Origin: Lota lota
Lineage: Eukaryota; Chordata; Actinopteri; Gadiformes; Lotidae
DNA: 64,000 nucleotides
Direction of reading: 5' to 3'
NCBI GenBank assembly: GCA_026745465.1
Contig: JACYXH010000314.1
Location: forward strand, 1,232,501-1,296,500
Made by a program: the position numbers and the translations under genes. Below are positions 1-62,844 of the stretch, in pieces. Within the stretch, counting starts at the first letter, position 1, and the number at the start of each line of letters is the position of its first letter. The notes beneath the pieces are model-generated. The model was not told the DNA's origin and did no database searches. It saw only the letters and a program-made list of their open reading frames with translations.

Positions 1-19
1 CATTTATTTTCCGGTCTTC

Positions 20-20
20 A

Positions 21-86
<66 letters not shown>

Positions 87-122
87 TCATGTATATATAT
101 AGAAATGTGTGTATATATACAC

Positions 123-195
<73 letters not shown>

Positions 196-215
196 TATAT
201 GTGTATATGTACACA
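20..215. repeat. (TA)n microsatellite, compound
   Basis: Runs at 20-84, 92-101 and 123-200, separated by short GT/AC-containing pieces. Ile-Tyr frames here are artefacts. Confidence 0.97.
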
Positions 216-414
216 CATTTCTTTTCCAGTCTTCATCTTAAAATTGTGTCATTAATTCATAAATGAATATATTCATTCATAAATGCCTCTTCATGGTTGT
301 CTGTTGTACTGTAGCAGCAGCTAACTGTGGCAGCATCTGCTGGAGACACAGGGCTTATGGCGGAGAGTAATAGCAGTCGCTGTGAGTAATGGCTAAGCTA
401 ATGAAACACCGTCT

Positions 415-1877
<1,463 letters not shown>

Positions 1878-1880
1878 AAA

Positions 1881-1936
1881 CAGATGGACAGACAGACAGG
1901 CAGACAGGCAGACAGACAGACAGACAGACAGACAGG
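1881..1936. repeat. (GACA)n microsatellite
   Basis: GACA/GGCA units, about 14 copies, with an inverted TCTG run just before (1863-1875) that could pair with it. Confidence 0.95.
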
Positions 1937-3404
1937 ACCAGTTGCCAGCCTCTTCCTCTCATCGCCTTCATTGTATTCGTCATCTCATCTGCATTTCTGA
2001 AACCGTGTACAAAACAATACGAAACCCTTGCAACACACAGTAGCCAAGCCAAGCGACAGAATTAAGTCTTTTATATGACAAACAAACAGCCTGTAAATCG
2101 GATTAGGGTGGTGGGGGGCAGTGGTGGGGGGGGGAAGTCTTCACCACTGAAGAGCCTTTGGATATCTGGTGGACAACGTCTACACAACAGACTGCCAAGA
2201 CATGACGCACACCTCGTTCTTGAGCGTGCCGGGCAAACACAATGGAGCTTGCTTGACATAAAAGGGGTGGGGGGGGGACGATTTGAAATGGAACACCACA
2301 ATGGACGATGCGTTCTGTGTTTGCACAGTGGTGGGAGTAAGGGGGGGGGGGGGGCGGGAGGGAAGGGGTGCTGCCTATTCTTCCCAGCCTTAGACACAGC
2401 TCTAAGGTATACGAAGCCCACAATGGGAGCTGATTGCCGGCGGAGTGATGTGGCGTTCCAGGAACAAGGGAGAACTTTCTCAGATCCTCTGGGTCCTCGT
2501 AAACTCTGTGACCTTTCATTAGCACGACAACATGCAACGCCATGAAGGGAGACAAACTCTCTCTCTCTCGCTCGCTGTATAGACTCTTCTTCTTCCTATG
2601 GATCTGAGAAGGGTGCTCCTGTTGCTAGCTCAAAGCTATTTGTCCCGGCATGACATTGGGATCTACAATGACTATTCAACGGGAGGAGGGAATGGGGTGG
2701 AGGCATGAGGAGTGCAACCAAGACACAGTGCATGGAGAGACAGGAGACAGTATCGGCACGCAACACAGCACAATATCCCACCACTAAAGCACTTCTACCA
2801 ACAGTATAGCATACTGTTCCCATCACAGATGGGAAAATAATTGATCATACCCAGCACAAAAAAAAAACATCGCCCCAATTTATGGCATTGTGTCTAATTT
2901 CTACAAGTGGAAAGTCTGTTAACAATGATTGGTGTGTGGACGGAACAAGAACAGCTCAGAGGAGAACATGCTTGTGTGTAACTCGTAAAATGTTGCCCAA
3001 TCTTGGGAGTTTCGATTTTTTGGCTTTGCCAGCTGGGCAGTCTTGTTGCTGTGCTGAAGCCAGAGCTGGTTGCTGTTGATAATCATCTACGAGCGTGCGA
3101 CAGACAGACAGACAGACAGACAGAGAGAGATTGAGCAGATGGCATTTTTCATAGGTTTTTGTTTTGCTTTCTCTGAATAAGAAATGCTCTGGTGAATACC
3201 AAGCTCGGTGGGAGAGGAGGGAGGAGGCAAGAGGAGGAGTAAATTGAAGCAGTCCTGCACAGGAGCGGCCTAGTTGTCTGGAGAGGCGGCTGCCATTGTT
3301 GTGTGTGTGCTCCGATTCCAGAGCAATGGGCCAGTTCTGCTCCTTCATTAACGCCATGCCGAGTAGGGAGATGGACACAGTGCACATGAATCCCATTACC
3401 TTCC
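1937..3404. other. Non-coding stretch with G-rich tracts
   Basis: Short G runs at 2113-2135, 2265-2277 and 2340-2355, and GACA at 3102-3123. Open frames on both strands over 2075-2555 come from these G/C tracts. No exon recognised. Confidence 0.65.
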
Positions 3405-3639
3405 CCCCTCTCTCTCCGTCTCTCTCTCTCTCTCTCATCCTGCCCGTTATCTCCTTGTCTCTCTCTCACTCACTTTCTCCCCGTATCACTTTCTCTCATC
3501 TTCCCCCTTCTCTCCCTCTCTCTCTCTCTCCTTCCTCTCTCTCCCACTTATCGTTCCTCTCTCTTTCCCTCGCTCTCTCACTCTCTCTCACTCATCTTTC
3601 CTCTCTCTCTCGCTCTCTCTCTCTCCCTGTTTCTCTCTG
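3405..3639. repeat. Imperfect CT-rich tract
   Basis: Polypyrimidine CT/CTCC tract, interrupted. It encodes Ser-Leu frames only by composition. Confidence 0.95.
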
Positions 3640-3758
3640 ACATGAGCGGGCTGATGAGAAGTGATTTTGTTGTTCCAGCAGATAACCAGGAGAAATAGTG
3701 CAACTCCAATTCAATTAAAGGCTAATGATTTAGTGTTTTATTTACCCCTTTACCAACA

Positions 3759-3775
3759 CCCCCCCCCCCCCCCCC
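3759..3775. repeat. Poly-C run (17)
   Basis: Uninterrupted C. Confidence 0.95.
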
Positions 3776-4205
3776 ATTCTGCTCCAGCCCAGAATGAGCC
3801 TTCAGCTGCTGGCTGAGAGCTGGGGCGACGTATCCGCAGGCCTGATAGCGGACACTTATAAGCCTAGTATGTACACTGGGAGCAACTAGCATAGTTTCAT
3901 CCTGCAACAACCAATGCCCGTTTTTTTGGCCAGAAATGAGACAACGCTGCAGACTCGGTAAATGTCAGGCTCGGTGACATTTCACAGAGCAATAGATATG
4001 AAAACCAGAGGGAGTTCGTATAATCTGGCAATAAGAGCCCTCTGATTGCCCATTTGAATGTAATTAAGGGGACTGGAATTCTGCAGGAGCATAATTCAAG
4101 TTCAGCGCTGCGGTCCGACGCCGGGGTTTGCTTTGAGTCATTTGAATGAATTAACCTAATTACCGTGGAATGTGTTTAGATACGCCAGGCTCATTCACCA
4201 GAGGA
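3776..4205. other. Repeat-free unique block, possible regulatory DNA
   Basis: No tandem repeat and several homeodomain-like TAAT/ATTA words (4061-4066, 4150-4162). Placed in the cadherin intron. Conservation was not tested. Confidence 0.3.
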
Positions 4206-4444
4206 AGTGGCCAGCAGAGGAAAAGGTCAGGACACGGTGGATGGGTAGGGAGACAGGCGAGAGGACAGACAGAGAGATGGACAAGAGTGATATGCGGGCA
4301 GATGGGACAGAGAGAGAAAAAGTATGTATATCTATCAGACAGCGATAGAGAGATAGACAGAGACAGAGAGATAGACAAGCAGGCAGACAGAAAGTCTGTC
4401 TAGCAGATAGACAGAAAGACAGACAGACAGACAAGAGGGCAGAC

Positions 4445-4502
<58 letters not shown>

Positions 4503-4575
4503 TCTATCAGACAGACAAGCGGGGAGACAGCCAAACAGAAGGAGAGCGAGGCTATCTATCTATCTATCAGACAGA
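4206..4575. repeat. Compound GACA / GA / TATC repeat
   Basis: GACAGA-type units from about 4255, pure GA at 4449-4498 and TATC at 4552-4568. Confidence 0.92.
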
Positions 4576-5038
4576 CAGATTTGGTCTATTCAAAAAAACT
4601 ACTTGTGCGAAGGCTAACTAACTACCACATATTAACACAGCAGAAAAACCAATGAAGCATATATTTCCTCTATGTTGACCATGTGATTAGACATGGTCCT
4701 ACTGACAGTGCAGTGTGGGCCCAGAGCCACATGGTCAGGTGTGTTGTATTGGGTGCTGCGGGTGCTGACAGCACCAGCCAGCGTTGATGATGGAGTTGGA
4801 TGACAAGAGACCATGCCCTGCTGCCAAGAAGCCACAGTGTCCAGGCTTAACGTGCCAATGGAGTCCACTCCCAAGAAGTGTGTGCGTGAAGAAGCGGCCG
4901 TTAACACGCGTTTGCTAATAAGAACACACGTTGGACAGGATTGAAATACATTTTGCTTTAAGTTTCACCCCTCCTGTGGCAGGTACATTTGTGCGCCGAT
5001 GAGGTGGCACTGTGCATACACGTGCGCGGTGGCGCAAG

Positions 5039-5079
<41 letters not shown>

Positions 5080-6118
5080 TGTGCCCACATCTCACAAGCT
5101 GTTTGTTCCTCTGCTCCTAGGCCCCGGCGGGCCCATCAGAGATCAATCACGCCACACTTGCATGATGGAACGGCCTGTCAGCAGCCACTGCTGTGGCCAT
5201 GATTCAATAAAACAAATCAAAATACACACGCAGACATAACAAAGAGGCTCACCACGCGGGAAACAGAGCGGAAACCACAGAGGAACATTTCAATGTAAAC
5301 GATGGAGGAGAAGTGGCGTCGGGGCGCTTTGACAAGAAGGAATGAGGGAGGATGGCAAATGAAGAAAATCTCGGACAATAGCTGAGGGAAGCGGAGTAAA
5401 AGACAGAGAGGAAGGGAGCATGATGATGCTGAAAGAGGCAGACATACAGGCACACACACACACACACACAGACGCAGACAGACAGACACACACAGATGGT
5501 TTACTGGCTGGGTGGGGGCAAACCCAATCAGACGGACCCTACGGACTACCCTCACATATACATGTTTACGGTTAAGAGTCTTACTGCAGGACTTTCTAGA
5601 ATATCACTCTGTGTGTGAATTCCGTGCTCTCTGCAGGGTTTGTCAGTAGGTAGTCTCGCATATCAGAGTTTAGATTATTAATCGTAAGTCTAATGCTTTT
5701 GATTTGAAGCAAACTTTATTTCCGTTCATATTTTACTAATCGTGTTAATGTAGGCGGGGATCTTTAAGCACGTAATTGGCAAAAACAAACACGACCAGCA
5801 GTATTAAACGGTAGAAAAGTGGCTGTAAATGTTTTAAATCAACACGGTGTACACTAGCCACTGTATAAATACACTTATTCAAATCCCCTTCTGAAAGCTT
5901 CACCCACTAGCCCAAATACGTTTTCTGCGGTAGAATAGCTCCCTAACAAAACAGGAAACAAGGCTTCACTCCACCCCTTGCAGTTTTTGGTTTCTGGCCC
6001 AGGTTCTATTCTGTCTGGCGCCAGAAGTTCTGCCATTACATAGTAAGACTGCTGGATCCGAGATTAGTCTGAAGGTAACCAGAGCACTGTGGGACTCACG
6101 GCTACCCTTGGTTTCTTT
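4576..6118. other. Non-coding intron stretch
   Basis: GT repeat at 5043-5083 and CA repeat at 5451-5470; the rest looks unique. No exon recognised. Confidence 0.65.
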
Positions 6119-6141
6119 GGGGGGGGGGGGGGGGGGGGGGG
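6119..6141. repeat. Poly-G run (23)
   Basis: Uninterrupted G. Confidence 0.95.
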
Positions 6142-6276
6142 TTGCACCCAAGGAAGGATTAGTGTAAAACCACATATACCTTCACTTCTGCCCTAACCTG
6201 ATCACACAGCATGACCAGAGGTAGCCATTAAACAGTTCTGCCTCTGCTTGCCAGCAGGACTTAAGGTTTAGCCTTA

Positions 6277-8206
<1,930 letters not shown>

Positions 8207-8470
8207 ACACACACACACACACACACACACATTAACACACTCATATGAACACATACATGCACATGCATACACACAGACACACTCGTACACACATTATCAC
8301 ACTAACATGCATATATGCATGCACACACACATATGCACGTACAGACATTCACACCTGTACACTCACACACATATTAATACACACACATGAACATACACTG
8401 TGCACATGCATCCACACAGACACACTCGTACACACACACACACGCACACACACATACACACACACACAGC
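8207..8470. repeat. CA-rich degenerate microsatellite
   Basis: CA, CATA and CAGA units in several blocks. A segment near 8238-8300 recurs at about 8388-8440, a local duplication. Confidence 0.9.
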
Positions 8471-8679
8471 AGTTCCCTAACTCCTCACAAAGCCACTCAC
8501 CTAGAACAAACAACAACATTGACAAGTAGTGCAGTAGTGCACATGGATGAGCCAAATAGATTTCATGCTGCTTGGAATATGGAAAGACGAAAGTCTCACT
8601 TGAGTAAAGTATGCTACCGTTGTGATACCCAAGTTCTGAGAAATTACATTAGCAATGAGTGTACAGTGAGTAACCCCCC

Positions 8680-8681
<2 letters not shown>

Positions 8682-8717
<36 letters not shown>

Positions 8718-8739
8718 CCACACACACACACACACACAC
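8682..8739. repeat. Poly-C (35) plus (CA)n
   Basis: 35 C, then GCCA and about ten CA units. Confidence 0.95.
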
Positions 8740-8986
8740 CCAATAAACCAAAACCCATCATCCTAAAGGACATATGCAGCCATGAGAGTAAAAAACTGCA
8801 TTGAAGATTTGCTGGTAATGTGGTTGAGGAGGAAGTAAATAAATAATCCTGTTTAATAATTCATTGAAATTCATGTTGCTTTGCCTGTGGCCTTGAAAGT
8901 GTTTAGAATGCAGCCTGCAAGCACTGCCTGGCGGTGGTGGTGGTGTGTGCTGAGATTATTGAACATTTGTGTATTCACGCATTGAT

Positions 8987-9019
<33 letters not shown>

Positions 9020-9574
9020 CATATCTACATACACCGGACAGTCATCGCCCAACTTGGTCCATATTCGCCAAAGTGAATCTCTGAAGTGGGAAGAAAAGTT
9101 TGCACAAAGCCACGGGCTGCTGGAGCGGGAAGCAGGGCCCAGAGACGTGGCTTCACAGGAGGAGAGAGGCCTGAAAATTGGATCAAAAATTATTCTAAGG
9201 ATGAGAAAACGGTAGTGTAAAAACAGCGATAAGGGAGAAGAGTTTTGTTTTTTCAGTTGAGTTCAACTTCTGTTCTGTAGAAATCAACTAAAAGGTAGTG
9301 AGTCACTCATACGTAATCTGTTTCAGAAATGTGTATCCAGTAAATAAACAGTGCATTCTGTATTCGTTTTCATTCTGAAATATTTCTTTCAATATCGGGA
9401 TTCATCGCTGCTATTGTGCTGCTTTTACAAAGACTACAAGCATCAAGACAGTGTAACACAGTTTACTGTTTATTTTGCCATAAACAACTGTGTGTATGCA
9501 GGACGCTCCACACAACATGTGCATTGAAAGGGGAACTAAAATCGGACTCTTGGACAGGGAAATGCCTGGAGAGA
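8740..9574. other. Non-coding stretch
   Basis: CA repeat at 8988-9015, otherwise unique-looking. No exon recognised. Confidence 0.6.
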
Positions 9575-9582
9575 TCACATGG

Positions 9583-9858
9583 TAGGGCTGCACGATTAAA
9601 TTAAAAATGATAATTGTGATTATTTTGCCCGATATTGTGATTGTGTTTACTGATTGCAATTAACAGATTAGTGATTCAATTTATATTCTGTGGTGCCTAC
9701 TGTATATCAAAAACTATAATAATAAAGCAATTGCTGAGTTGTAATGGTTTGTAATTTGATATTATTGTAAAGGGGGTACAAATTCTTATTTATTCATGTT
9801 TAAAAGAAAAACGTATAATCTTTTTTAATACATTTGTTGCAGTAATTGGGCTGCCTTA
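9583..9858. mobile_element. hAT-type non-autonomous element (MITE)
   Basis: The element is 276 bp, flanked by a perfect 8-bp direct repeat TCACATGG (9575-9582 and 9859-9866), the target size of hAT transposons. The left end TAGGGCTGCACGATTA and the inverted right end TAAGGCAGCCCAATTA agree at 12 of 16 positions. The left-end sequence resembles common fish hAT ends. The interior is AT-rich without coding potential. Confidence 0.75.
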
Positions 9859-9866
9859 TCACATGG

Positions 9867-10588
9867 GGAGAAAAAAAACAATTGTGCAATTGACTCATCT
9901 TATCAACAGCGAGGTAGAGAAACATATGCAGGGCTTCTTTCAACGCCTCCGCCAGTGACCTTGCGGTAGTGAAATACGTTATTACAAAAACGTTGCCATA
10001 CAGAACTCCCCTGCATTCTCCAAGATTACTACAAGCAATTCCTACAACAACAACAACAACAACAATTTAGAGCACACAAAACACAGTACAAGCCCCTATC
10101 AATCAAGCCCCCAGACATCTGAAGGGTCAATGGAACGGTGCATGTTCCACTACCAGAGTTTCCATGGTCCACTGTTCGAGCGCGTATGTATGGACGCGGA
10201 GTCCATCATTCCAACTCCAATTCCAACTCCAACTCCTCCAACACTTATCCCGCTGAAGTACCCTGCCTTTGGCAGAATTTCCTCAACAGTAGAGAGAGCG
10301 TCTGAACCAAGGCTTCCGACATAAAGGTATGACGACAACGCTAGCGAGAGAAGCGTAGCGCGGCGCTCAGGGCGATGTCAACTATTCGCTATTTAGCTAT
10401 TTTGTTGTATTGCATTCAAGGTAAACAAGGGAAGACCCACAGGAACAATACACACAACAAAAAATGATCACAGGAAATAATATTATCACCAAAATACTTC
10501 AGTCGCAATGTTTAAGATTGAACCCCTCCGAGGTAATAGGTGGGAGACTTTAAGAATTCAAAAATTTTAATAAGTTTTCTGTCAACTC
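9867..10588. other. Non-coding stretch
   Basis: CAA repeat at 10045-10064 and a CCAACT repeat near 10209-10240. No exon recognised. Confidence 0.6.
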
Positions 10589-10591
10589 TAA

Positions 10592-11558
10592 GGCCTCATT
10601 CACACCGCAAGCAAAAGTGGCCCAAATCTGCTCATATTAGACACAGATCCGAATTTCAGCACAGTGTGCATAGCACAAATCACATGGAATCTGATCTTTT
10701 CAATTCTGATTTGTGCCCCTTTCATATGTGGTCCTGAATCAGATCCAGGTCTGATTTCTTGCAATGAGACCTCAGTCTGACCAGCCGTATCGGAATTAAT
10801 GCGACCTTGACGTCACTCTAGACGTCACAAATTCTGCGCTTGAGAGTCACTCACTAAATGCAAACATGGACGACAGCTCCGATGGAGGTAGTCAGTCGAG
10901 GGACAGTGAAAAAAAGTATTAATAGTAGTAATGTTGGATGCTGATTAATAATGATATTTGTTCCTTTTCTGGCAATCAGTCGCCCACAATAGCGCCTGTG
11001 TGTTTTTTCTTGAATAGCGCTAGTCCTGCTGTGACATTTCATCAAAACGTTGCACTGTTCAAACCACCTTATTTGTAGGCTACTCATACTATGGAAGCTG
11101 AGTGTCTTCTGAAACATTTAGGCTACATCGAAGCTCTGCTATAACCTAGTCGGCTCGGACCGCTGAGTGGACCTGAATACCACTGAAATCCACGCAGCAG
11201 TCCGACGTGATATTGTACTTTTGCTTTTAGTGTTGATAAATTTTATTTGAACCGCTTTAGAAATGGAAAGGGAAAAAATTATCAGTTGATAAAAATAACA
11301 TCCACCAGCGTGAAAATGTCCACACCATGTGAACACTCAAAACTGCACATCAACTTATAGATTAAACATAAATGCTGACTTCAGTGGCCTCCATGTTACC
11401 ACTGTGGGTGCTGCCACTGGTCACAGTATGGACTGTGACCAGTCCATACTGGAATCTGATACTGGCCATATTTAGAAATAATGTGCAGCCAATCCAAAAA
11501 ATCGGATCAGTGCAATCAATCTGAATTGAGCATTAAGGCTTGCAGAGTGAACTGAGCT
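10592..11558. mobile_element. Probable PIF/Harbinger-like DNA transposon relic
   Basis: The two ends are imperfect inverted repeats (left GGCCTCATTCACACCGCAAGC; right, inverted, AGCTCAGTTCACTCTGCAAGC). TAA flanks both sides (10589-10591 and 11559-11561), which fits the 3-bp TWA target of Harbinger elements. Sub-terminal words (CACTGATCCGATTTT and CACAGATCCGAATTT) are also inverted. A short ATG frame at 10866 (MDDSSDGGSQSRDSEKKY, then stop) could be the decayed start of a protein. No transposase domain is left. The superfamily is an inference. Confidence 0.5.
11417..11451. other. Two overlapping, mutually exclusive stem-loops
   Basis: CTGGTCACAGT (11417-11427) pairs with 11432-11442. CAGTATGGACTG (11424-11435) pairs with 11440-11451. 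The two pairings share bases, so only one can form at a time. They lie inside the Harbinger-like relic. Confidence 0.7.
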
Positions 11559-11561
11559 TAA

Positions 11562-13458
11562 TTGAATGTGCCACTGTGTGACACAAACTAGCTAAACTCG
11601 GCAGGCTGGGTTGCATGAGTGGGAGGGGTTTTCTTAGTTTTGATAGTAAGATTCTTGTAAACAAAGTGAGAGGTACAGGCTGGCCAGCATTTTTCGTTTT
11701 GTAGAAAAAATCCCTTATAAGAGAATTTATTGATAACATTATTTAAATCACTCGATCAGCATTGACCAGTTATGTCCAGGTTATTTTAAGCTACCAGCTA
11801 GTAAATATGGTACACATTGCGACTTCAAAGTGTTAGCAAGTTGAAGGGAATGCTTAATATTCATGTTTATGAGGTGAGGTGAATGGCTCATTCATCCAGT
11901 GACTCATGCTAATTTTGTGATCCATGACCACTTGGTTTTACTGTAAGATGCTCTGAGCTTATCTGTTCTGTCTGGATAGGCTGGATAGACGGTCACATTA
12001 GAAGAAACTAGACAGTTAGGAGCTAGCTATGAGGCGCAACTCAAAACCACGATCAGGGCCAATAGGAACAAAGATTGTTAACCACCGAAAATAAAAAGTC
12101 TCAAGGCACCCCCTTTTCTTTTCTTGGCGCTCAAATTTACCGCCTCCCACACGGGCTTCCTCAGATATCCACCATAATTCACTTGTCTCACTCAACGTGT
12201 TGACATCTAATCATTTGGATGCAGTCCTTTAAATACTAGACTGGTTTTTACCACACTCTATTCAATGTTAAATCTAAATAGGGCCCTGGCTGGAACAACT
12301 GTCTGTTTCTCCACAGGCCCACGGAGGCTCTAATCTTAATGACACGGTATCATGATGCCACCGCATTAGGGCCTGCCTACATTCTTCTATTGGCCAGGGC
12401 TAAATTGCTGTTCATAGGGATGACAAGACTCGTTTTCCCAGAGACCACGGCGACTCACAGTGTCTTTTATTGTCTTACTGCTGGGCTGTCGCACTGAGAG
12501 CAAACAATGTCACACCAGCAAAGCCATGGCACACACTTTTCTCCATCAGACACACACACTCAATCTCTTTCATTTAATCCTTTTGTTAATAAGTTCCCAG
12601 AGCTATATCTTTTTATCTGGAAAATTATATGACGCTTTGGAGGCAATACAAGGCAGAAAGAAAACCAGAACAAGAGAGGCAAATTTAGGAGAAGAAAATA
12701 AATGAATGAAAAAAACAAAAAGAAACAAAGAAACAAACAAATAGAGAGACTGGAGGGAGAGGAGAGACAGCGAGAGAGAAAGAGAGAGTGTTATTCTTCT
12801 GAGATTGGGATCAATACTGCTGCATGCAACTGTGATGTGCATTGCCAGCAAAATAAAGAGCAGTGTTGTATTGATTGACCCCTATATTTCAATCATACAG
12901 CAGCTCCATCACCCCAGGATTTATTTGCCTCTACGGGTGCTGTTGAATGGAAAGCAGCAACATGTATAAGACAGGCGTTATGCTGAGTAGAGATCGGAAA
13001 TGCTAAGCGTAAAGCTTAACCACAGTCCACAAAAACACTTGTTTTCCTATATAAAACACAACTAATAGTTTGGTTTTGGTTTGCTTCATTTTTCTCGGTA
13101 AGTGTGGGAGGAGGGGGTAGGATCTGGGAAAACTTTGGCATAGTTATGGTGTTTCATGTGGATTTGTGTGTGCTGCCAGCCAATGTTTTCGATCGGCATG
13201 CTGGTGAGTTGCTCGCATATGGAGAAGTAATCAAGTGGGAGGCAAAGGAAACGCTTCAGCAGGGCTTAGAAAATCCTTTGTTTCTGAACACCACTGTTTA
13301 ATTGAGCTCACCCAGAGAGCGATACTATGGAAACCCACAGGTAGGTTATCGAGGTAACATATCTACACTCCATATTCTCATACTGCACCTGTGTAAATCC
13401 AGGTTCCTCAAATACAAATGTGTGTTTGGGTGTGCATGTGTGCGCTGGTGTGTGTATA
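11562..13458. other. Non-coding, largely unique stretch
   Basis: A-rich and GA-rich segment at 12700-12790. No exon, SINE or inverted repeat recognised elsewhere in it. Confidence 0.6.
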
Positions 13459-13500
13459 TGCGTTTGTGTGTGTGTGTGTGTGTGTTTGTGTGTTTGTCTT
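13459..13500. repeat. (GT)n microsatellite
   Basis: GT units within a wider TG-rich segment, 13418-13540. Confidence 0.93.
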
Positions 13501-13719
13501 GGAGTGTGTGTACGGTTTTGTGTCTGTGCTTGTGTATGCAATTGCCAAACAGATTGGGGTAAAATTCTATATCAACCGACGACATCAGTTTGTCACACTT
13601 TAGTTATTTTTCTCAAGAAGGGAGGCTTTGTATTAAATCTGTAGACAGCTCAATTGGAGCCAGAGAATTGTATTCAGAAGTGTGACGGACCAAACATAAC
13701 AGTACAAATAAACAGAATC

Positions 13720-13862
13720 ATCTAGTGGTTAGGCTTTTTGATTCCCCGCCAACGTCTGCAGCTCACCTGTAGGCATCCTTGAGTACGATTTAATTCTAAC
13801 GCCGACCTGCTCATTAATTACCTGTATTTAAAAGTCACTTTGGCTAAAGGTGTAAAACTGAA
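13720..13862 (+). mobile_element. Degenerate SINE fragment
   Basis: CTAGTGGTTAGGC (A-box side), GTAGGCATCCTTGAGTACG (body) and GTCACTTTGGCTAAAGGTG (tail) occur in the order seen in the SINEs at 14.5 and 18.0 kb. The B-box is poorly kept and the copy is old. Confidence 0.5.
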
Positions 13863-14491
13863 ATAATGTTAGAAAAGCTGAGATGGTAGTGGAAGAGAAG
13901 AGAAGGAGGGGAGAGATGAGCACATGGGAGAAAACGAATCATGGATTTATGCAAAGCATGTTCTGACTGAGTGTGAAGGTGGTTATTCAATTAAGTCTCT
14001 GGATTAGGCAGTGTTTAAACAGTACTCTTATATTCTATTAATAAATTAATGTGATGCTTGCCAGTGGACTGGAACTGATATGCATATTCAATCTGAAGAC
14101 TGAATCCTGGCCAAAATATGCTCTTTTTAATACCTCCTGTCTGTAAAAGGCAGTCGCAAAGAAAGTAAGTGGCAGCAGTTCAAACTTTTTTTTAAAGTTT
14201 ATAACTATCCAACTATCTAACAGTAGTCATACCATGCAAGATAATAGGCAAGAACATTAACATCAACAGTAATATTCAAAGCTTGTTGATTTTAGTTTTT
14301 TTTTCTTCGGACCTTAAGTACCTTGAAGTGTAAGTGAACGCTCTGTTTCAGCTCGAATATAAACACTATGAGATAAAAGAAAAGCTGTTGGGGCTGAGAG
14401 TTCTAGGAAGGAGGGGGGCATGTTATCGCCATGGTTATGACAAACACCAACTTTGTGCTGCTTTTTCAGTACAATCGTTGTGTATGAGCGA

Positions 14492-14721
14492 CATATGTGG
14501 GTTGGCTTAGCTCAGGAGGTAGAGCGGGTTGACGTGTAACCGCAAGGTTGCTAGTTTGATACCAGGCTCCTCCTAGCTGAGTGTCGAGGTGTCCCTGAGC
14601 AAGACACCTAACCCTAACTGCTCCCGGCGAGCCGGCTGTCGCCTTGCATGGTTGACTCCGCCGTCGATGTGTGTATGAGTCACTTTGTGATAAAAGCGTC
14701 TGCTAAATGTAAATGTTATAA
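14492..14721 (+). mobile_element. tRNA-derived SINE, nearly full length
   Basis: The head has a Pol III A-box-like word (TTAGCTCAGGAGGTAGAGC, 14507-14525) and a B-box-like word (GGTTGCTAGTTTGATACC, about 14546-14563). The body contains CCTGAGCAAGACACCTAACC, and the tail is AAAGCGTCTGCTAAATGTAAATG, the LINE-related tail shared by many teleost SINEs. An 8-bp word ATGAGCGA on each side (14484-14491 and 14722-14729) may be the target duplication. Confidence 0.75.
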
Positions 14722-14729
14722 ATGAGCGA

Positions 14730-15894
14730 TGTTGTATATGAAGTGCCCTACACACTTGTGTTATTCTAATAGTGTCTGAGATGTTTAACCCTCTCTCGGA
14801 CACGGACATTAAAATCAACTGCTGGCCAGACGGAGCTCCATACATAGTGAAGTGAAGACAAAGTGCATCGGAAAAGGTTCACTACCCCTTTAAATGAGAT
14901 CATCTCAACAGAAACACAAAAAGAGAGTAATTATACAAACTGTGACCAGAGCCTGTGTGACAATATGAATATTGAGCCAGAAGAAGCAACTTGTAAATAC
15001 ATCCAGCAGTAGGCTACCACAAGTCACAGCGTTAGTTTGGACTTACTTATATCCAAATACAATGAATCAAGAGAATTAAGCCAAAACGGCTCCACAGCTA
15101 AAGGCAATGCAGTTTTCCTCCATCACTAATGGGAACTGGATTTGTGTTTCTGATGGTGTCCTCTTTTCATAGCACGTATCGTATATGTGCCTCCAAGCCA
15201 AACAAAACTTAATGTGTGACAAAAACCTTATTGGTAAACCCATCATATGTTACCTATTTTGTTATTGGCCACCCATCTGGACTGGCCCATCTGTTAGATG
15301 GTTTACCCAATTGAAGGTGAAATAGCTCATTTCAACATTATATTCTGAATGTTAGGGCCACATTTATTCATGCAAAACATTAGGAATGATTGAATTCAGC
15401 AAATAGTAAGTCACAGCAACGCCGGGCTAAACTACGCGATGCTACATATAAATGATCACTTTATGATTTGTGCTAAACTTTGTAATGTAATGTATGTAAT
15501 GACTCTGTTCGAGCTCATTACAAAGTACAGTTGAAGTGACTTACAAAGCATATACTCAAAGGATTTTACACAAACAAACTCAATACTGTGTTGTACTTTC
15601 TACTTTTTACCGTTTTCTTTAACCAAATAATTAACAATGAATAACAGCAATAATAAAAATAAGCACAGGACAGGTGTTAAGAAGTAGATTCCCCTTATCT
15701 TAGCTGTTAATTAATATGCAAAGCCCCCCATCTCAAGGTTGTGCATTATGATAGTCAGACATTATTACCTAAAAACATAAACACAAGCAATACGAGTCAT
15801 TCAAAAACTTGAATAAACATGACCCTGAAACCATACAAGAGCCCATCTCTGTGTGCACTGGTCTCTCTCCAACTCCTCTGCATTGCCGCTTACC
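14730..15894. other. Non-coding, unique-looking stretch
   Basis: AT-rich, no repeat or exon recognised. A TAATGTAATGTATGTAATG short tandem is at about 15482-15502. Confidence 0.55.
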
Positions 15895-16020
15895 CTCGCT
15901 CTCTCGCACTCCCTCATCTCTCTCTCTGCCTCTCTCTCTCTCTCCTCATGGAGTATGTTCTCCATCGTCCTCTCTCTATTTTTGTCTCTCGGTTTCTCTC
16001 TCTGTTCCCTCTCCTAAGCA
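15895..16020. repeat. CT-rich tract
   Basis: Imperfect CTCTCT/CCTCT polypyrimidine tract. Confidence 0.92.
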
Positions 16021-16223
16021 TATCCTTTGCTTCTTAATGAGCCATGGGATTGACAGCTGGATTACTAGGCCGCTTTGTAATCCTTTAATTTCTCCATTTA
16101 GAATAATCACCCTCTGGATGGAACTCTGCCTACGCGCACACACAAACAACACATAAGATAACACACTTTCCATTTGAGACACTCAGAGGAAAGTCAATTT
16201 TTCTAACACAGGCACAACTCTCT

Positions 16224-17964
16224 TGCATACTGCAGTGTGTGTGTGTATGTGTGAACGTGTGTGGTGTGCGTGTCGATGTGCGCGACTGCGTATGCATTTG
16301 TAATTATGTCACTTGGGTATATATCAACATGTTTATGCTTGAGTAGAGTAAGTGAACTAGGGACTTTGTCAGACTAACAAGCTAACTCAATAGAAATCCC
16401 ATGGTTGAATTAGTCCAAAGGACAAAACACGTAGAAGTGCCACAATCCCCTTCTGTGGTTAAGGGACCATTTCAATATTAGAGCATGTAGAACAAAAAGG
16501 GCTACTTGGCTGCAGAGCTCCCTTTAATTAGGAAGACAGAGGAGCGTAGCCTGCGGTTGAAGCGATAGCTGTACAGAGTTCACACAGTGACCAAACTGGA
16601 GATGCATTTAGCCACAGTTCCGAGGGCTGGACGCCAAGAGTCAAGCCTTAGGTGTAAATCATTTTGATTGCGGTGGGTGATTTCAGCCGTGGTTGTGAAG
16701 TGTCGCGAGGGTAGGTGCTGGGCGTCCGGGATGAGTTAGGGGAGGGGGGGTTGGAGGTAAGGTGAGGGGGTTATGAGGTGGGGGAGTGGGTGGGGTTGCA
16801 CAAGAGGCAGCACAAGGTCAAAGTGTTTGGCCATAACTCATCGATAAAGAGTGATGCTGTTTGTGTGACTTGGCGTCCCTGGCTCAAGGGGAACAAGGGG
16901 GGGGGGGGGGGGGGGGGGGGGGAGCTAGGGTCGGTGGAAGCGGATGTAGAATCGCGCAACAGCGAATGAAACGACTCCTAACCGACACAAATTGAATGTC
17001 ACTGTGCTGAGTTTAATGACATCTGTAGCCAAGAAGTGTGTGATTATGGAAGCCGCTGTGCGTGGCTGGCAGAACTGGGCGATCCGATGGCGTACACATG
17101 TCCATGACACAATGCACCGACGAAAGGCAACGCATGAGTCACTCGGAGCGAAGGAAAAAACACCCAATAGGTTCAAAAAGGCAGACGCTGAACATTATCT
17201 GTATGTCGAGGATGATGTAAATGTCCCCGTGTGTGTGCAAAAACCAAGTACAAGAAGCATAAAACCCAGGTTAGAAAATACAAAAAGTGAAACCCAGAAA
17301 GAAGCATATTTTTAATTCTTCATTCCCTTCTTCTTGTTCTATCCCCCTCATCTCCTCATCCTCCTTTGAAAGACGAAATGAGTGGAAAGATGAAAGTGGG
17401 CCCCCAAAATCCTCTCCATCTCTACGGACAGAGAAAGACCTTGTTGACTAACTCATTGTGCTGTAATTACAATGCCCCCGCATGAAGCAGGGCTTGAACT
17501 CAGACCAAGGTCATCTCTGTAAAATATCTGGTAAATATCATTTTCAGAGAAAGACAAAAAGAAACAGATTTTTTTTTTAACATTTTTACAATGTCTCGTT
17601 TTTCTTAAGCTTTTCTTGAATGTAGTCTTGCAAATCAACATCACTCCCCCATTGACGATATTTCCAAACAGGGTCACAGGTTCCTGTGGAGACTGTGCTT
17701 TTAATGCAGAGTTCGGAGTCATTGTTGGTATTTGAGGTAACAATGACAGTGAACAGAGCACGGGAAAGTAGGGAGTGTGAAGTCAAAGATCCTTGGTTCA
17801 CTGAACCAAGGTTCCCTTATGCCTATTCAGATTAGTGCTGCCACTATAACTGCACTACCAGCCTACTGCAGTGTTAGGGGACTTCATTAGAAAGCAGAGC
17901 ATATTATAGCCATTATCAATATAAAGTATGTGTTCTCCAGCTTGTTAAGAGTCTGTTTAATACA
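16224..17964. other. Non-coding stretch with poly-G
   Basis: GT-rich at 16224-16270, G-rich at 16735-16800, and poly-G (26) at 16897-16922. A 99-codon plus-strand frame from the ATG at 17016 (MTSVAKKCVIMEAAV...) is not recognised and has no splice support. Confidence 0.55.
17791..17811. other. Short palindrome
   Basis: CCTTGGTTCA, one base, then TGAACCAAGG: exact 10-nt arms. It may be a chance inverted repeat. Confidence 0.7.
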
Positions 17965-18152
17965 TTTGTTACTGGTTAGGGTGTTTGACTCCAAGCCGAA
18001 AGGTCCTGGGTTCCAAGCCCAAAGTCTTTAGTCTTCCTGAAGGCATCCTTGAGCAAGAGGCCCAAATCCCCCTAACAGCTTATAATGACATGAATCTAAA
18101 AATAAGACACTGTAAATCGCCATGGATAAATGTTCTGCTAAATGACTAAATA
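17965..18152 (+). mobile_element. tRNA-derived SINE copy
   Basis: An A-box-like ACTGGTTAGGGTGTTTGACTC and a B-box-like GGTCCTGGGTTCCAAGCCC are followed by GGCATCCTTGAGCAAGAGGC and a tail GATAAATGTTCTGCTAAATG. It is diverged but has the order of the teleost SINE at 14.5 kb. It lies in the antisense direction within the cadherin intron. Confidence 0.65.
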
Positions 18153-19980
18153 TTATTTGTTGGACATATGCTCATGTGTTTCATCAAACATTCAGGTTCA
18201 GGTATAATGAGGTAGAAAGCAGATGTGTCCGCTGTACTGCAGATGAGTGACAAGTTACTTTCAAAAGTCCTTGTTGTTAAAGTAGTTTGTGTTATGTTCT
18301 TAGACATTGTCATCTGGTCTATTCATAGATTCATGGATTATTACCAAAACAAAAATCTCAAATGTAAATGACCACTTAATGCGCACAACTGTGAGAACAA
18401 ACAAAGTCTAATGAAATTCAAATGAGAAGGCAAGTGAAAAGTCAAATAGTGGCATGGCAATTGCTGCTAAGCACTAGTCTAGGCTTTTTTGTTTTTTGCT
18501 TTTTCCATAAATATAAATTAGATAAGATGTATCCTGTTCAGCTTCTGCGGAATGACAAAACATGATTAAAGCCCATTTTAATGTTTTGAAAATTGTTTCA
18601 ATCTGGATATTGTGTACACGAGTAATCACAATATAAAAATCGAAAGCAATATCATTGTCTGGGTACCATCCCCTGTGGCATACTTTTCATATTTAGGATT
18701 AGCCAACATTTTGGTTCCCTTGTCTACTATAGAAAAAATAACCAATAGCAGCTGTACCATATTATTAGAAAAAATGAACCCTAAATCAGATACATATATA
18801 TACACTACATCTTGAATTGCCAGAAAGTTTAGTAATGAAGTAGTAGAGACCAGGTTACATGCCAGGTGAATAGGTCAAACAGAGGTCCAACAGGGTTCTC
18901 CTGATAATAATGTCCCTTTTAAACTGCTACAATGGACTGTCACAGTTTTACCACACATTGATTTTAAGAGAGGGTAGTGAGTTAAAGCAAGTCTAAAATA
19001 AAATATTAGACTTGCATTGGCTCATATCTTAAAATTTGTATTTAATTTGATTATATTACAATTTCCAACATACATATACATACAACATATTTCCATTCAT
19101 ACATTTAATTTAATCATGTTGGTTCCCAGTAGTAGTAGTTCCACCTGGTTGTGCAAGATGTAATTTCACCCAATATAATAAGATGATTGGCAAAATAGCC
19201 TCAGGCTAACTTTCTCCCATGTGCCATGTCATTACAGGCTACTTTCTTTTTGGGTTGAGTTCAATAATAAATACACAAGAATTGGTTTTGTTGTGGGCAC
19301 CAGTGTGTAGCTCCAATATACCCACAACCAGCACCTGTTTCCCCTGCTACATTATTCCTCCCTATGTGTTCCTCTCGGTTCCCTACCCTAGATGGTGTAT
19401 AATCTAACCTGCAGCCGCTGGCATCTGGAGATCCAATCTGTCGCCTGATAATATCATGATTACCTGTGTTTGGAGGTCACAACTCAGGGCACCTTTCCCT
19501 CACCTCTATTTTGTCCGGATAATTCAAACGTACCCGCGTAACCTTTTTAGTGGTAGTATAATAATGGGATCAGAGCGTACCGCCTTACAATAGCTCACGG
19601 CTGTGTCTCAGAGACTAGAACTGAGGAGGAGAGGAAAGTTTAGCGAGAAGATGTGAGCACTACTGACTGCAAACATGCAGGAGTCAAGTTTGTCTTGTTC
19701 AATCTCCGAATGGGGAAATAAGAATGCAGCTGCCTACTGGTCAACCTTCGGACTAATGCTAATGCTAGCATGACGCGAGAAGGCACTTAGTTAGTTATAC
19801 TTTAACCATAACTAATCAAACACGCCTCGCGCAGACAGGTCGTATTTTGGCGATTTCCTGTCCATCGAAAAAGCACCTGCTCCTTTAGAACCGACCACCA
19901 CATTCAGAGGGACCAGGGCAGCATAACAAGATGGAAAGCACGGGGCTTTCGCCATGGTGCGCTATGTTTGGGGGCTGCTG
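18153..19980. other. Non-coding, AT-rich stretch
   Basis: No tandem repeat or exon recognised. Confidence 0.55.
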
Positions 19981-20340
19981 TTTGATGAAACGTGCTCCAT
20001 AGATGTACGTCATGTTGTGGGGGTAGTTTGAGGCATGCGGGAGTGTCGCGGTGGCGCGGTAAGGAGGCAGCGCAGATAAAGAGAAATAATGTAGCCGATC
20101 CACGGTACCTGTATTCTATCAGCTTGCCGCAGCTCGCCGGCCCCGGTGACAGAGATGAAAGAGTCTCCCGAGGACAAGAGAGATGTTAGCGAGTCAGAGC
20201 GAAAATGGCATCCTGCTTTATCAAACGGCCAAGAACGTAATCCCCCCTCGTTCCCGCTGCCCGGTTGCGGACATACTTATAGAGGCCCTGTCGCTTTGGG
20301 TATAAGAGGTTATGAAGGTGTACGTTCTGGACACCGGTGC
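19981..20340. promoter_or_regulatory. CpG-rich patch within cadherin intron 2
   Basis: About 26 CpG dinucleotides in 360 bp counted by eye, far above the surrounding DNA. It could be an alternative promoter or an intronic enhancer. An ATG frame on the plus strand (20155-20349, MKESPEDKRDVSESE...) runs 64 codons but matches nothing I recognise and has no good splice donor. Confidence 0.4.
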
Positions 20341-23300
20341 TGCTTTTAGATATGGCTCTTCGTCCAATTTCCCAAGTGATGTCTAATTGGGGTCGCGTTG
20401 CGAGTCATTTCACAGGAGCGTTTGAGTTGAACTCCTTGTCATCCTGAATATGTCTGAGCAAGAAATACTCATGTATTTGAAGATTAAAGTACATTGATTA
20501 ATATTTGGTTGTTCGCTTTGGTTAGCGAATGCACCTTTATTGGACCAAATAAGGAGAAGCCCCAAAAGACCCCATAGGAAGGGGGAAAGCATAAGAAATA
20601 CACCACACGCAGTGTAAGAAGAGCATGTACGGGCGGTGGCTGGAAGGCATCAGATTCTTCAGTATTATCCTTTCATAGGGCCAAGGTTCAAGAACAAACA
20701 CAGTTTGGATATCAAAAACAAGCTCATTCTTTTTGAAAGAGCAGACGGGGTCTAAAGTAACAGAACATAGCGTATACTTCTGGTCAGGCTGAACGTTTTT
20801 TGTTGGGCAAGGAATTTACATTTCTATTGTTGTGCCGTCACCTGCGAACAATATTATCGTCATTTTTTGCTCTCTTTCTTCACAGTCAAAGGAGAAAACG
20901 AACTGCCTTATCAAAATCCAGTGCTGCCTTGGTGAAAATTTGTTTCTTTCCAAAATAATGAGAAGAAATTCTGTGATACGTACATTAAAGTATTTTCCTT
21001 TTGTCGCAGGATCATAAAGCCACAGTGTTCACCCACTACAGGCTGCCATGTTCCCCTTCTTTCCCCTGCATTCAGTACAGACACAGGGCGAAAGGCTAAC
21101 ACTCATCAGGTCTCTTTAAATATGCGCTGACAGCAACTTAAGGAGCTGTGATCCGCAAGTAGGCAGATAGCTCAAATCATCCTCAACTTCTTTTTTGGGC
21201 AGAAGACCCCCCTCTCTAGCACCACATTTTCCAGGTATCTCTTCTCTCAGAGCGTGGTGACAGTTTACACAGAAATGTGCAAGCACTGTAATATTTCTTT
21301 TCATGGCTTATCAGGCCCCAGTGGGGGATTCTGCCCAGACCAAGAGCCTCTGCGTCTGGTTATGTCTATACCACAGAATCTCACTCTAGCCGCCATCTAG
21401 CTTGGAGAAACCACCGTCCTCAGGAACATGAGCCTATTCATGGGGCTATTCATTGGGAAACGCTTAAGCAGTTCTTAGAGGGACTGGAGGAAAGCTGTGG
21501 ATAGCGTACTGAGTGACGGAAGATAGAATGAGAACAAGTTGGGCGATGCACACAAGACACATTTTAGGCAAAATATTGTTATCGCACCATTTCTGTGGGG
21601 AAATACACATATTTTGCATAATCCATTAACAGGTCTCGGTTAATGAAAGGGACATATCAATTATGTTTTGTATTAACTGACACAAGCCGCCCACGCTCCA
21701 TTAGAGTAATCAGCGGACAAAAAAACCACAATGTCCCTATTTTACAGCAACAACAAATGGCCCTTGTTTCTGAATAGTGTACATTGTTTTGCTGCCTGAA
21801 AACACAATCCCTGTGCTGCAGCCTTGCACCTGCTGAGACTTCTTTGGTCTTCTGCCCACATCATTCCCTGTCCGTCCTATGGGACAGCACGATCCCGTCT
21901 GGGGGGCCCTGCCATCCAGAACCCCTTCTACCTACCTACCCCCCACCCCTCTCTGTGCATCCCTACCACAACCCCCCCCCCACCCCCTCCCCATGCCCAT
22001 TTGTTTTCTCGAGGAAAAAAGGTGACAGTTTTGGGTTATCCACGCCATGGCTGTGGGTCGTAAAGGCTGCCTCCTGCTTGGCGTCCTACTGTACAGAAAA
22101 CACAGCTTCAGTCAGTTTCACCACTGCCCATTAATCATGGCAGGAGGACATAAGCTATATGGTCGGGCCTATATCCCTTTGAGGGGCTAGCTCGGCGGAC
22201 CGATGGCTGTAGGCTCCAGCATTGAATATTTTTAACAGAGTAAAAGCACTATAGGGAGGACTCAAGTGAGAGTCAGGGAGGTGGATCATCCATCAGCAAG
22301 GGTGCATCTGTTGTGCATCTGGATGATGTACATTATGAACCGAACAAAGATTGATACATTCTGAGCTCTCCTGAGTTGGGTGAAGCATAGGCACACCATT
22401 TGGTCCGTTTTGGCTGAACCTGGTGAGCCCCTTTAACTCGTGTGTGGACCAAAACAACTAGTCCAAGGCCGCTTCTTATAGCGAGATGTTTGCTTGACAT
22501 CTGGGCAGAAGAGTACTGAATAGTTACTTATTCAAGATAAACAGGATCTTTTGTAGGATACGGGATTTGTGCACACAATAGACCAGTGTCAAGTAAAGGT
22601 AAAATAACAACTTATATTCAACGATTCCCTGCATAGAAGTAGCAGGGAGGGTGTGACATAAAAGATGCAACATTTCTGCGATTAGGTTTGCAGGTTTACG
22701 TGCTCTCTCCAAAACAACAAAATAACCTCCAGAATAACTCAATTGTTGTCTTTTTGCACAGCTGGAAAACGCTCAATGGGAACACCATTTCCTTCTGGCA
22801 AATAACATTTCACATAACAATAGACTAATATTTGGCTGTAAAAGCGGGAGCGTCAGGGGAGAGCTAAGCTTATTGCACTCTGTCGCATTGGCGCTCCCAA
22901 ACGCATGAGTAACTGCCATGAGTAGACGAAATGTGCGACAATATGTACCAACCTAAATGTTAGGCTTCTCTTTTGAGCCCATGAGTCCCTCATCCACAGC
23001 AGTGGAAACTTCTACTAATCATAAAAGGTCAGAAATGTTTGAGTTGGCCAAGATAGGCCTAACCCTTGGTCTTTAATTTAGGGCTGGGAGGTTTGTGTTT
23101 TAGTATTTCACTACCTTGCAATCATAGGAAAGGTTTGGAAGATGTGGTCTGTAAGTCTGTTAATAGCATACAGTAAAAACAAGTGTTCTGGGTTAGCTTT
23201 ATGCTTGTTGTGATCAATTACTCAGCAAATCCATTTCTTAGCCAAACCAAATCATGTATTGACATTCAATGAAAGCCTTTCAACAGTTAGAGAGAGGTTT

Positions 23301-24009
23301 ACCAAAAATAACATACTGCGCATTTTCATATTGCTGGAGAAAATGCTTTTCAATAATGTCACGGCATGCACTGAAATGAAATGGAGCGAATGAAAAGAGA
23401 ATTGAATTCCTCCAAAAATATACAAAGAAAGAAACTCTAGAAAACGAATTACACTGAGGATAGAATAAAATACTGAGTCTTCAGACAGCAAACATGCACA
23501 GCAGGAGACAGATTGCTAATTTGAATGGCTCTGCTCTTAGCAGACATCTGATTAAATCCATCAAAATGTGAAATATGCAGAATTTTAAAGCTGTGTCATT
23601 CAGGAGGTGCTTCATCAATTAAACTCTATGCACCATTAATATTACTTTCCCCGCTCATAATTTAGGCAGGAGTGCATTATGCACACATCACAGGTTAAAT
23701 CTTTGCAGGATTTATCCGAGCTGCACTCCCAGCTCTGGGTTCGTCTGCCTGGCTGTGTGTGGAGGCCCGTGCTCCGGGATGAGCTGTTTATGTTTCCTGA
23801 GCGTGATCCGACCTTCTTAAAGGAGTGATGGAGAGTCTCGGCATAATATATGTGCCTGCACATTCCATCGGCCCCACCTCGTCCACACACGCACTCACGC
23901 ACTCAATCACACGGCCGAGGTTGGGGAATCCATTTGGGCCAGAGAGAGGAAGGAAGGAAGAAAAAGAAATTGCTCAGTCAATAAAAGGAGGGATCCAAAC
24001 GGGACTTAC
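20341..24009. other. Intron 2 proximal part
   Basis: Largely repeat-free. C-rich at 21940-21995. At 23084 a TTAGGGCTGGGAGG word looks like a hAT-type end, but no partner was found. A block at 23500-23720 is dense in ATTA/TAAT words. Confidence 0.5.
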
Positions 24010-24121
24010 CTTTGAGAATGCTTTGGCCACGCAGTATATCCCTTGAGACAATCACTGTGTAGAAGTTCTGGGAGAAGCCCGGTTTGCAGGGGGGTTTGGG
24101 CGGCTGGTCTAGCTTAGTCCC
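24010..24121 (-). CDS. Classical (type I) cadherin, exon 2 (start of prodomain)
   Basis: This 112-nt minus-strand exon is open throughout: 37 codons plus one base. It is bounded by an acceptor with a pyrimidine run (TTTTTTTACCTTCCGTAG|GGG) and a consensus donor (CTCAAAG|GTAAGT). It begins GTKLDQPPKPPCKPGF, continues SQNFYTVIVSRDILRG and ends QSILK. The C-K-x-G-F...Y...S...G-Q..L pattern is that of the N-terminal prodomain of classical cadherins, Ca-dependent cell adhesion receptors whose prodomain is removed by furin. The 112-nt length and exit phase 1 fit the family; human CDH1 exon 2 is 115 nt, also phase 1, from memory. By remembered residues it is slightly closer to R-cadherin (cdh4) than to N-cadherin (cdh2), but the paralogue is not settled. 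Exon 3 (rest of the prodomain) is not visible down to base 1. Confidence 0.9.
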
Positions 24122-25463
24122 CTACGGAAGGTAAAAAAACAAGTGGGGCATTAAGGATTGGCAAATTGACTTTCGGCTTAAGGGTCGCAGGCTCATGTCT
24201 CGCAGCCTTTCAGGTTCTGTTGAAATCCGGCTCTGGCCATCTTTTCGGATCTACTGCTTCCTGGTTTGTTTTGCATTGACAGCATTGTGCGGCCTGGGAC
24301 CGTCACAGGTTTGAATCTCTAGGTTGGACACCTGTTTTAAATAATTGCTGTGGATAGTGCAGATGGGTCTGGGGTGGGGGTGCAGGGTAAATGGGGCTGG
24401 AGATGCATGCTGAGTATAACCTTTGAAAGAGGGGTTGGAGTGGGGATGACACCAATGATATACAGTAATGATGGAATAATTATGTTGGTGAAAATATATT
24501 GACAATGATGATATGTGAAGGGAGATGTAGTGGCTGCAGTATTGTGCACCAAAGAGAGAACAGCAAAATGTTGTCAAAGGATCAGGCATTTCAATTCCTA
24601 TTATAGCCTACTATTGAAAGGGTTGATTACTGTTATGCTAAAAGGCAGCCTAACCAAGAACAACAGGGGGCCAATTTTCCTTTTCCACGCACAGGAAACT
24701 AAGCCCAGCATCACAACGATCAATTAGAGATCATTTCAATTTAACACACGAGCTGTTCAATTAGTTCTGAATAAAAAAACGATTCGTAGCCTACGTTGTA
24801 CCCTGATTGTGCAAAACTTGCAACATAGGCATTATGTGGTGTAGCCCTACTAGTGTTTGCGTGATCGAGCGCAATCTGTTTTCAGATCATCTGAGTCAAG
24901 CCATCGATAGTTGTATCCAATGCATAGGCTATAGTAAATAATTGCGCAATATCCTAAGACAAAAAAAGCATTGCAACAGCAACATTGGGAGTTTCAATTT
25001 CAGGTTTAAAAAAATTACTTACAGATCAAGACATTTGGGTGAAAATGTGCGTTACTGAGGGTTGCCTAGTGTCTATGAACCTGTTTTATGACAAACAGGC
25101 AGTGTGAAAACGACAAGTTTATAGCAGCTAAAACGACCAGACAGCATTAACTCTATCATCTGCAATAAAGGACCGCAGTTAAGACTAACAATATAAAAGG
25201 GTGGTTCATCATCATTCCCAGGGCACATTATCTTTCGCAGGGCAATTAAACCGTATGTTAAATCGAACGTCACTTGATTACAGGCACAACCGAAGGTGGC
25301 GTTCATCGCCAGGCTGCAGGGGAATACTTTCCCCTTCCCTGTCACTTTAGGGATGCGCCGGGCAGAGCGCCGGGCAGAGCGCCGAGCAGCGGAGCGGCAC
25401 AGCGGCAGTTATCGCCTCCGCCGTATTTTCCTTGGCTAAATGAAAACACTGAAATAATCTTAC
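24122..25463 (-). other. Cadherin intron 1 (1342 nt)
   Basis: The intron between the two cadherin exons starts GTAAGATT (minus strand, from 25463) and ends CCGTAG (24122-24127), a GT-AG intron in phase 0. A short first intron is usual for classical cadherins. Its beginning holds a GC-rich 12-mer repeated about three times (unit GCGCCGGGCAGA on the plus strand, 25355-25392). No other exon was seen. Confidence 0.8.
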
Positions 25464-25514
25464 CAGGGATGAACCAACAAGTAACGTGCACGTCAATAGA
25501 GCAACGATATTCAT
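25464..25514 (-). CDS. Classical cadherin, coding part of exon 1 (signal peptide)
   Basis: Read on the minus strand, this 51-nt segment encodes MNIVALLTCTLLVGSSL: a start Met, a hydrophobic Val-Ala-Leu-Leu / Leu-Leu-Val core and small residues at the end, as in a secretory signal peptide. It ends exactly at a splice donor (CTG|GTAAGA, intron GT at 25462-25463), phase 0. The ATG at 25512-25514 has A at -3 and G at -1, a good initiation context. An in-frame ATG lies seven codons upstream (25533-25535) in a weaker context and would add MTPESVK, so the true start is not certain. The next exon (24010-24121) is in frame and carries the prodomain start. In classical cadherins exon 1 encodes little more than the signal peptide, which matches. 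The exon and its frame are seen directly; assignment to a cadherin comes mainly from exon 2. Confidence 0.8.
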
Positions 25515-25601
25515 CTTCACAGATTCGGGTGTCATCAACGGTAAGAGACGACCGAGTGGAGTTCTTCAGCACCAGGTAGTAATAGTGGTAGTCGCAGTCG
25601 G

Positions 25602-25623
25602 AGTAGTAGTAGTAGTAGTAGCA

Positions 25624-25671
<48 letters not shown>

Positions 25672-25672
25672 A
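25602..25672. repeat. (AGT)n / (TAC)n trinucleotide microsatellite upstream of cadherin ATG
   Basis: About 23 trinucleotide units, interrupted once (gcagtagaag, 25621-25630). In the transcribed (minus) direction it reads TACTACTAC. It lies 88 nt upstream of the preferred ATG and downstream of the CCAAT boxes, so it is probably in the 5' UTR. The long Tyr or Leu runs in overlapping frames are artefacts of the repeat. Confidence 0.9.
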
Positions 25673-25673
25673 T

Positions 25674-25912
25674 TCCGAAGCCCTCTTCTGAAGAAACAGA
25701 GTAGAGCAGAGCAGCACCAGGAGTAACTGTCTGGGTAGAAGTGTCCCTGGTTGACTAGCGCAAAAGTGCCGCTTAGACAGAGATGCTGGGCTCTGGGAAA
25801 GAGAGCCACGTGCCCATTGGCTGATCACTGTGAAAAAGAGCCTCGTGCCTATTGGCTGGAAACGCCTCTACAACCCCACCCACTGCACTGTTATCACACT
25901 GGTAGCTTTTTA
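25674..25912 (-). promoter_or_regulatory. Promoter-like region of the cadherin gene
   Basis: On the minus strand, two CAGCCAAT-type CCAAT boxes (plus-strand attgg at 25816-25820 and 25851-25855) lie 35 bp apart. A CACGTG E-box is at 25807-25812 and a CACCC/KLF-type box (plus-strand ccccaccc) at about 25874-25881. A weak A/T-rich TATA-like word (tttaaaaag) at about 25906-25914 is probably too far upstream to be the core element. The spacing would put the start of transcription near 25.74-25.78 kb, about 230-270 nt before the start codon. No cap site can be assigned from sequence alone. Confidence 0.6.
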
Positions 25913-25937: not shown

Positions 25938-26027
25938 TATATATACTGCTCAAAAAAATAAAGGGAACACTTGGAGTTACATTGTGCTGTTTAAGTGTTC
26001 CCTTTATTTTTTTGAGCAGTATATATA
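25938..26027. mobile_element. Tc1-type terminal-repeat palindrome (mini-element)
   Basis: Two perfect 35-nt inverted arms (25938-25972 and 25993-26027) are separated by 20 nt. The arm core TACTGCTCAAAAAAATAAAG followed by GGAACACT is a terminal repeat known from Tc1-like elements in fish. Only the ends remain, with no interior. It lies about 30-120 bp upstream of the cadherin promoter-like region. Confidence 0.75.
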
Positions 26028-32522: not shown

Positions 32523-32861
32523 CCTCAACCACCCCCAACCTCCTCTATCTGACCAGGAGCACCTGCTATTGGCCCACCCGCTCCAACCCTGCGTATGTTG
32601 TTATACATCTCAGCCTGCTTGAGTTTTCCCTCTGCCCTCTGAGTCTCCTTCCAGGTAGATATGAAATATCGACTGTTCTCATCTGGGGCCTACAGATCAC
32701 CCGCCCCCCACCACCACCACTACCACTCCCCCTTACTCCCCACACACTGCCAGTTACTCTACTATCGGAGTTGCTAGCACAGCAACTTTGTGCGGACGGA
32801 AGCAGGGAGGGGAGTAGGAGGAGGGGGAGGGGGAGGGGGAAGCAGAGAGGAACCAGGGTAG

Positions 32862-38824: not shown

Positions 38825-39232
38825 GCCGCCAAGGGAGGGGACGGGCTGGGGGACTAAGGGAGGGGGACAGGCTGGGGGACGGGCTGGGGGACGGGGTGGG
38901 GGACCAGGGGAGGGGACGGGCTGGGGGACTAGGGGAGGGGGACTAGGGGAGGGGACAGGCTGGGGGAGTAGGGGAGGGGGACCAGTGGAGGGGACGGGCT
39001 GGGGGACTAGGGGAGGGGACGGGTTGAGGGACCAGGGGAGGGGATGGGCTGGGGGACCAGAGGGAAGGGCTGGGGGATGAGCTTGGGGACTAGAGGAGGG
39101 GACAAGCTGGGGAACGGGCTGGGAGACCAGAGGAGGGGACGAGCTGGGGGACCAGGGGAGGGGATCAGTAGAGGGGAGGGGAGGGGCTGGGGACAAGGTG
39201 AGTGGCTGAGGGACGGGCTGGGGTGGTTCTGC
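38825..39232. repeat. G-rich minisatellite
   Basis: Tandem array of GGGGACGGGCTGGGGGACYA and GGGGAGG units, about 10-35 bp, with strong G/C strand bias. Many closely spaced G-runs could form G-quadruplexes on the plus strand. The Pro-rich minus-strand frame (38807-39277) is an artefact of it. Confidence 0.95.

Positions 39233-59327: not shown

Positions 59328-62844
<3,517 letters not shown>

Follow-up and report, generated by a model that had tools for sequence, protein, structure and literature searches.

Does the minus strand between positions 24010 and 25514 of this 64-kb window (the whole stretch of Lota lota DNA analysed here) encode the 5' end of a cadherin gene, and if so, of which cadherin? 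We are highly confident of the first part: the region reads as the start of a cadherin gene. The initial annotation had proposed two minus-strand exons that join in frame across canonical splice borders, and both statements were confirmed. The coding part of exon 1 (25464..25514, an ATG plus 16 codons encoding MNIVALLTCTLLVGSSL, ending in phase 0) and exon 2 (24010..24121, 112 nt, encoding GTKLDQPPKPPCKPGFSQNFYTVIVSRDILRGQSILK plus one nucleotide, phase 0 in and phase 1 out) contribute 51 and 112 nt, respectively, to a joint translation of 54 residues, with one nucleotide over and therefore phase 1 at the second donor. With a slash marking each border, the 5' splice site of intron 1 on the minus strand reads CTG/GTAAGA (25458..25463), its 3' splice site consists of a polypyrimidine tract and TAG (24122..24139, border TTTTTTTACCTTCCGTAG/G), and the 5' splice site of intron 2 reads AAG/GTAAGT (24004..24009), the sole MAG/GTAAGT in the window, both strands counted. 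From the exon coordinates, splicing would remove an intron 1 of 1342 nt (24122..25463). Because the TAG of its acceptor doubles as a stop codon in the exon-2 frame, only splicing can carry this frame further upstream, and we rejected an upstream-extended exon 2 on that ground. Unspliced read-through meets a stop at codon 39 past exon 1 and at codon 11 past exon 2.

The same annotation had seen a cadherin prodomain pattern in the 112-nt exon, which is upheld by the splice anatomy and by a Pfam score that exceeds the curated threshold. We found that the exon-2 peptide matches Cadherin_pro (PF08758) at 25.9 bits, 2.9 bits above the gathering cut-off of 23, with an E of 1.2e-5 for one protein searched against all of Pfam; the alignment covers profile positions 1-27 of 90. 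The joined 54-residue peptide scores 24.6 bits against the same profile. Could a chance open stretch with a cadherin-like motif have produced this match? It is short (27 residues) and exceeds the cut-off by the margin just given, and a pairwise phmmer comparison with the N-cadherin prodomain chain 1op4, collinear and gap-free over 25 residues, gives an E of 1.3, third after two unrelated proteins and not significant alone. Against this stands the scan of the rest of the window, which took in 135 minus-strand open frames starting below 24010 (at least 45 aa, low-complexity frames excluded) and 132 further open frames out of the 252 listed. The frame containing exon 2 was the sole Cadherin_pro match at E ≤ 0.01 in these 267 frames. 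Four other families matched in the 135 minus-strand frames at E 0.0024 to 0.0044, and across all 267 the remaining matches, Tc1/Sleeping Beauty-type transposase families aside, had E values of 0.0024 to 0.0099. Moreover, a simple internal-exon rule, which asked for an open frame, a length of 60-250 nt, a polypyrimidine acceptor and no more than one mismatch in the donor, returned three minus-strand candidates in the 64 kb, exon 2 included, and four on the plus strand, and the Cadherin_pro match coincides with one of these seven. Given its E value, its uniqueness among the frames and this coincidence, we reject a chance motif, to which we assign a very low probability. A search of Rfam at gathering thresholds gave no match.

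The assignment of exon 1 is less certain than that of exon 2, and it draws on hydrophobicity, frame and CpG context. An earlier description of a 17-residue phase-0 signal-peptide exon holds for the coordinates, the translation and the donor, while the signal-peptide role is read from hydrophobicity, in which this exon ranks third among 20 minus-strand candidates in the window that run from an ATG to a phase-0 donor (a rank computed on a 24-residue form that begins at an upstream ATG). That alternative in-frame ATG (25533..25535, minus strand) lies 21 nt upstream and adds MTPESVK; it has T at -3, where the proposed ATG has A, and thus the poorer context. As judged from the reading frame, the cadherin product could start MTPESVKMNIV. 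The hydrophobicity ranking also bears on a different reading, namely that exon 2 is real, that the true first coding exon lies elsewhere (in another ATG exon further upstream, or behind a different promoter), and that 25464-25514 is a chance hydrophobic frame. Two candidates are indeed more hydrophobic; however, one of them (8209-8268) sits inside a CA/GT repeat downstream of exon 2 and the other (43448-43495) is 19 kb upstream, whereas the proposed exon 1 has A at -3, lies at the margin of a CpG-rich peak and is less than 1.4 kb from exon 2. We consider a different first exon unlikely and retain 25464..25514 as the putative signal-peptide exon.

The CpG-rich block reaches over exon 1 (25001..25700), with an observed/expected CpG ratio of up to 1.05 and a G+C content of 0.46-0.50. 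Measured in 500-base steps, the ratio stands at 1.05 for 25101-25600 and 0.98 for 25201-25700, and the window mean is 0.46. The step at 25101 has the second-highest ratio in the window, below a block at 7501; near 7501 and 20001 there are blocks with ratios similar to the exon 1 peak. Because G+C stays below 0.5 and similar blocks occur elsewhere, we describe the peak as promoter-like and not as a textbook CpG island. Two candidate CCAAT boxes on the minus strand (25816-25820 and 25851-25855), with a CACGTG E-box beside them (25807-25812), precede the start codon by about 300-340 bp; these are motif matches that may serve as promoter elements. A TATA-like match at 25940-25945 was rejected as a promoter element, being the end of a palindromic repeat. 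That repeat is a short MITE-like element (25940-26025) directly upstream of the promoter-like region, with inverted 33-nt arms (25940-25972 and 25993-26025, identified by eye) 20 nt apart. A trinucleotide array (25576-25671, some 32 copies of GTA as read on the plus strand) lies upstream of the start codon at a distance of about 60 nt and is perhaps part of the 5'UTR or promoter.

That the upstream 38 kb is regulatory DNA of the cadherin gene is an assumption only: absence of genes is not proof of regulation, and small exons of other genes may have escaped the frame scan. The one strong protein match among the 132 further frames is a 247-aa Tc1/mariner-type transposase frame (54070-54813, minus strand) with Pfam matches to Sleeping Beauty HTH and DDE_3. 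This upstream DNA also contains four long minisatellite arrays (32850-33523, 38829-39181, 50933-51327, and 62843-63443), and dinucleotide runs are numerous in the window.

On the other side of exon 2, positions 1..24009 would form the beginning of a putative intron 2 on the minus strand. This part of the initial annotation fits the scan, in that none of the 135 minus-strand frames downstream of exon 2 gave a second cadherin match. Intron 2 is therefore probably longer than 24 kb, and probably continues beyond the window. The remainder of the prodomain, past profile position 27, was not found in these 135 frames and probably lies beyond the window too. Likewise, the 267 frames gave no match to a furin-type site, five EC repeats, a transmembrane segment or a catenin-binding cytoplasmic tail, all of which are expected beyond the window. 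A review (PMC5097364) describes a large intron 2 in the E-cadherin gene that carries regulatory elements, and reports that across vertebrates the introns of the cadherin superfamily exceed those of other genes in length. Two blocks of high CpG observed/expected ratio within the putative intron (7401-8300, up to 1.10, and 19701-20600, up to 1.00) are possible regulatory elements or repeats.

We conclude that the minus strand of this locus likely carries coding exons 1 and 2 of a vertebrate classical cadherin from the N-/R-cadherin branch, where "classical" is read from the prodomain start, the one feature of that class present here. The earlier label of classical cadherin thus stands as likely: its prodomain start is seen as a Pfam match, while the EC repeats and cytoplasmic tail are absent from the frames scanned. 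Could the exons instead belong to a cadherin pseudogene, or to a dead duplicate whose expression has ceased? The rest of the gene is out of sight; yet both exons are open and flanked by canonical splice borders, the CpG-rich peak persists, and we regard decay of the gene as very unlikely.

Which cadherin is it? We compared the exon-2 peptide, over 26 residues from the conserved Cys, with the corresponding peptides of four human cadherins. Identities were 12/26 for CDH4, 10/26 for CDH2, 10/26 for CDH1, and 9/26 for CDH13, and the BLOSUM62 scores were 75 (CDH4), 66 (CDH2), 48 (CDH13), and 41 (CDH1). Scored against each other, the CDH2 and CDH4 peptides reach 74, which places the exon-2 peptide in the N-/R-cadherin branch, leaning to cdh4. 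In 20000 shuffles the observed score was never equalled with any of these cadherins, a result that is supportive only, as the peptide had been chosen for its likeness. The human prodomain exons of CDH2, CDH4, and CDH13 have 37 codons with Cys at codon 12, and that of CDH1 has 38 codons; exon 2, with 37 codons and Cys at codon 12, matches the shape of the first three.

Each candidate shares features with the exon-2 peptide and departs from it. R-cadherin (CDH4) shares the 37-codon phase 0-to-phase 1 prodomain exon, the position of the Cys and the most identities, but differs from the exon-2 peptide in the proline-rich QPPKPP ahead of the Cys, and the comparison spans 26 residues only. N-cadherin (CDH2; 1op4) has a collinear prodomain start, with CK.GF..Y and GQ..L common to both, but fewer identities with the human peptide and the pairwise E of 1.3. 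T-cadherin (CDH13) and E-cadherin (CDH1) share the C.PGF prodomain start, and CDH13 also has QSIL, but their scores are lower and the CDH1 exon is one of 38 codons. On a comparison of 26 residues we lean to CDH4 over CDH2, and we think it somewhat more likely than not that the gene is cdh4 itself. That it is instead cdh2, cdh13, cdh1 or another cadherin is less probable but a serious alternative: the CDH2 score is close to that of CDH4, QSIL is present in CDH13 too, and the comparison took in four human cadherins, of which CDH4 gives both the most identities and the top score.

If the minus strand is transcribed and spliced as proposed, exon 1 would supply the initiating ATG together with a signal peptide directing the nascent chain to the ER, and exon 2 would begin the prodomain, after which the window would continue into the long intron 2. 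In classical cadherins the prodomain prevents the precursor from adhering until cleavage at a furin-type site removes it; later exons would encode that site. Neither the family nor the layout of its 5' end is new, and the gene seems an ordinary representative of this well-studied group. We find it unlikely that current annotation misses this 5' end, owing to its tiny exons and very long intron 2, and so gives a deposited protein lacking the real signal peptide and prodomain start, which would possibly mark a lineage-specific teleost duplicate of cdh4 or cdh2. The cadherin 5' end nevertheless provides a solid anchor for the window, fixing a gene, its strand, its promoter area and the start of a long intron, and it illustrates that very short exons can be detected in raw sequence through motif, frame and splice borders.
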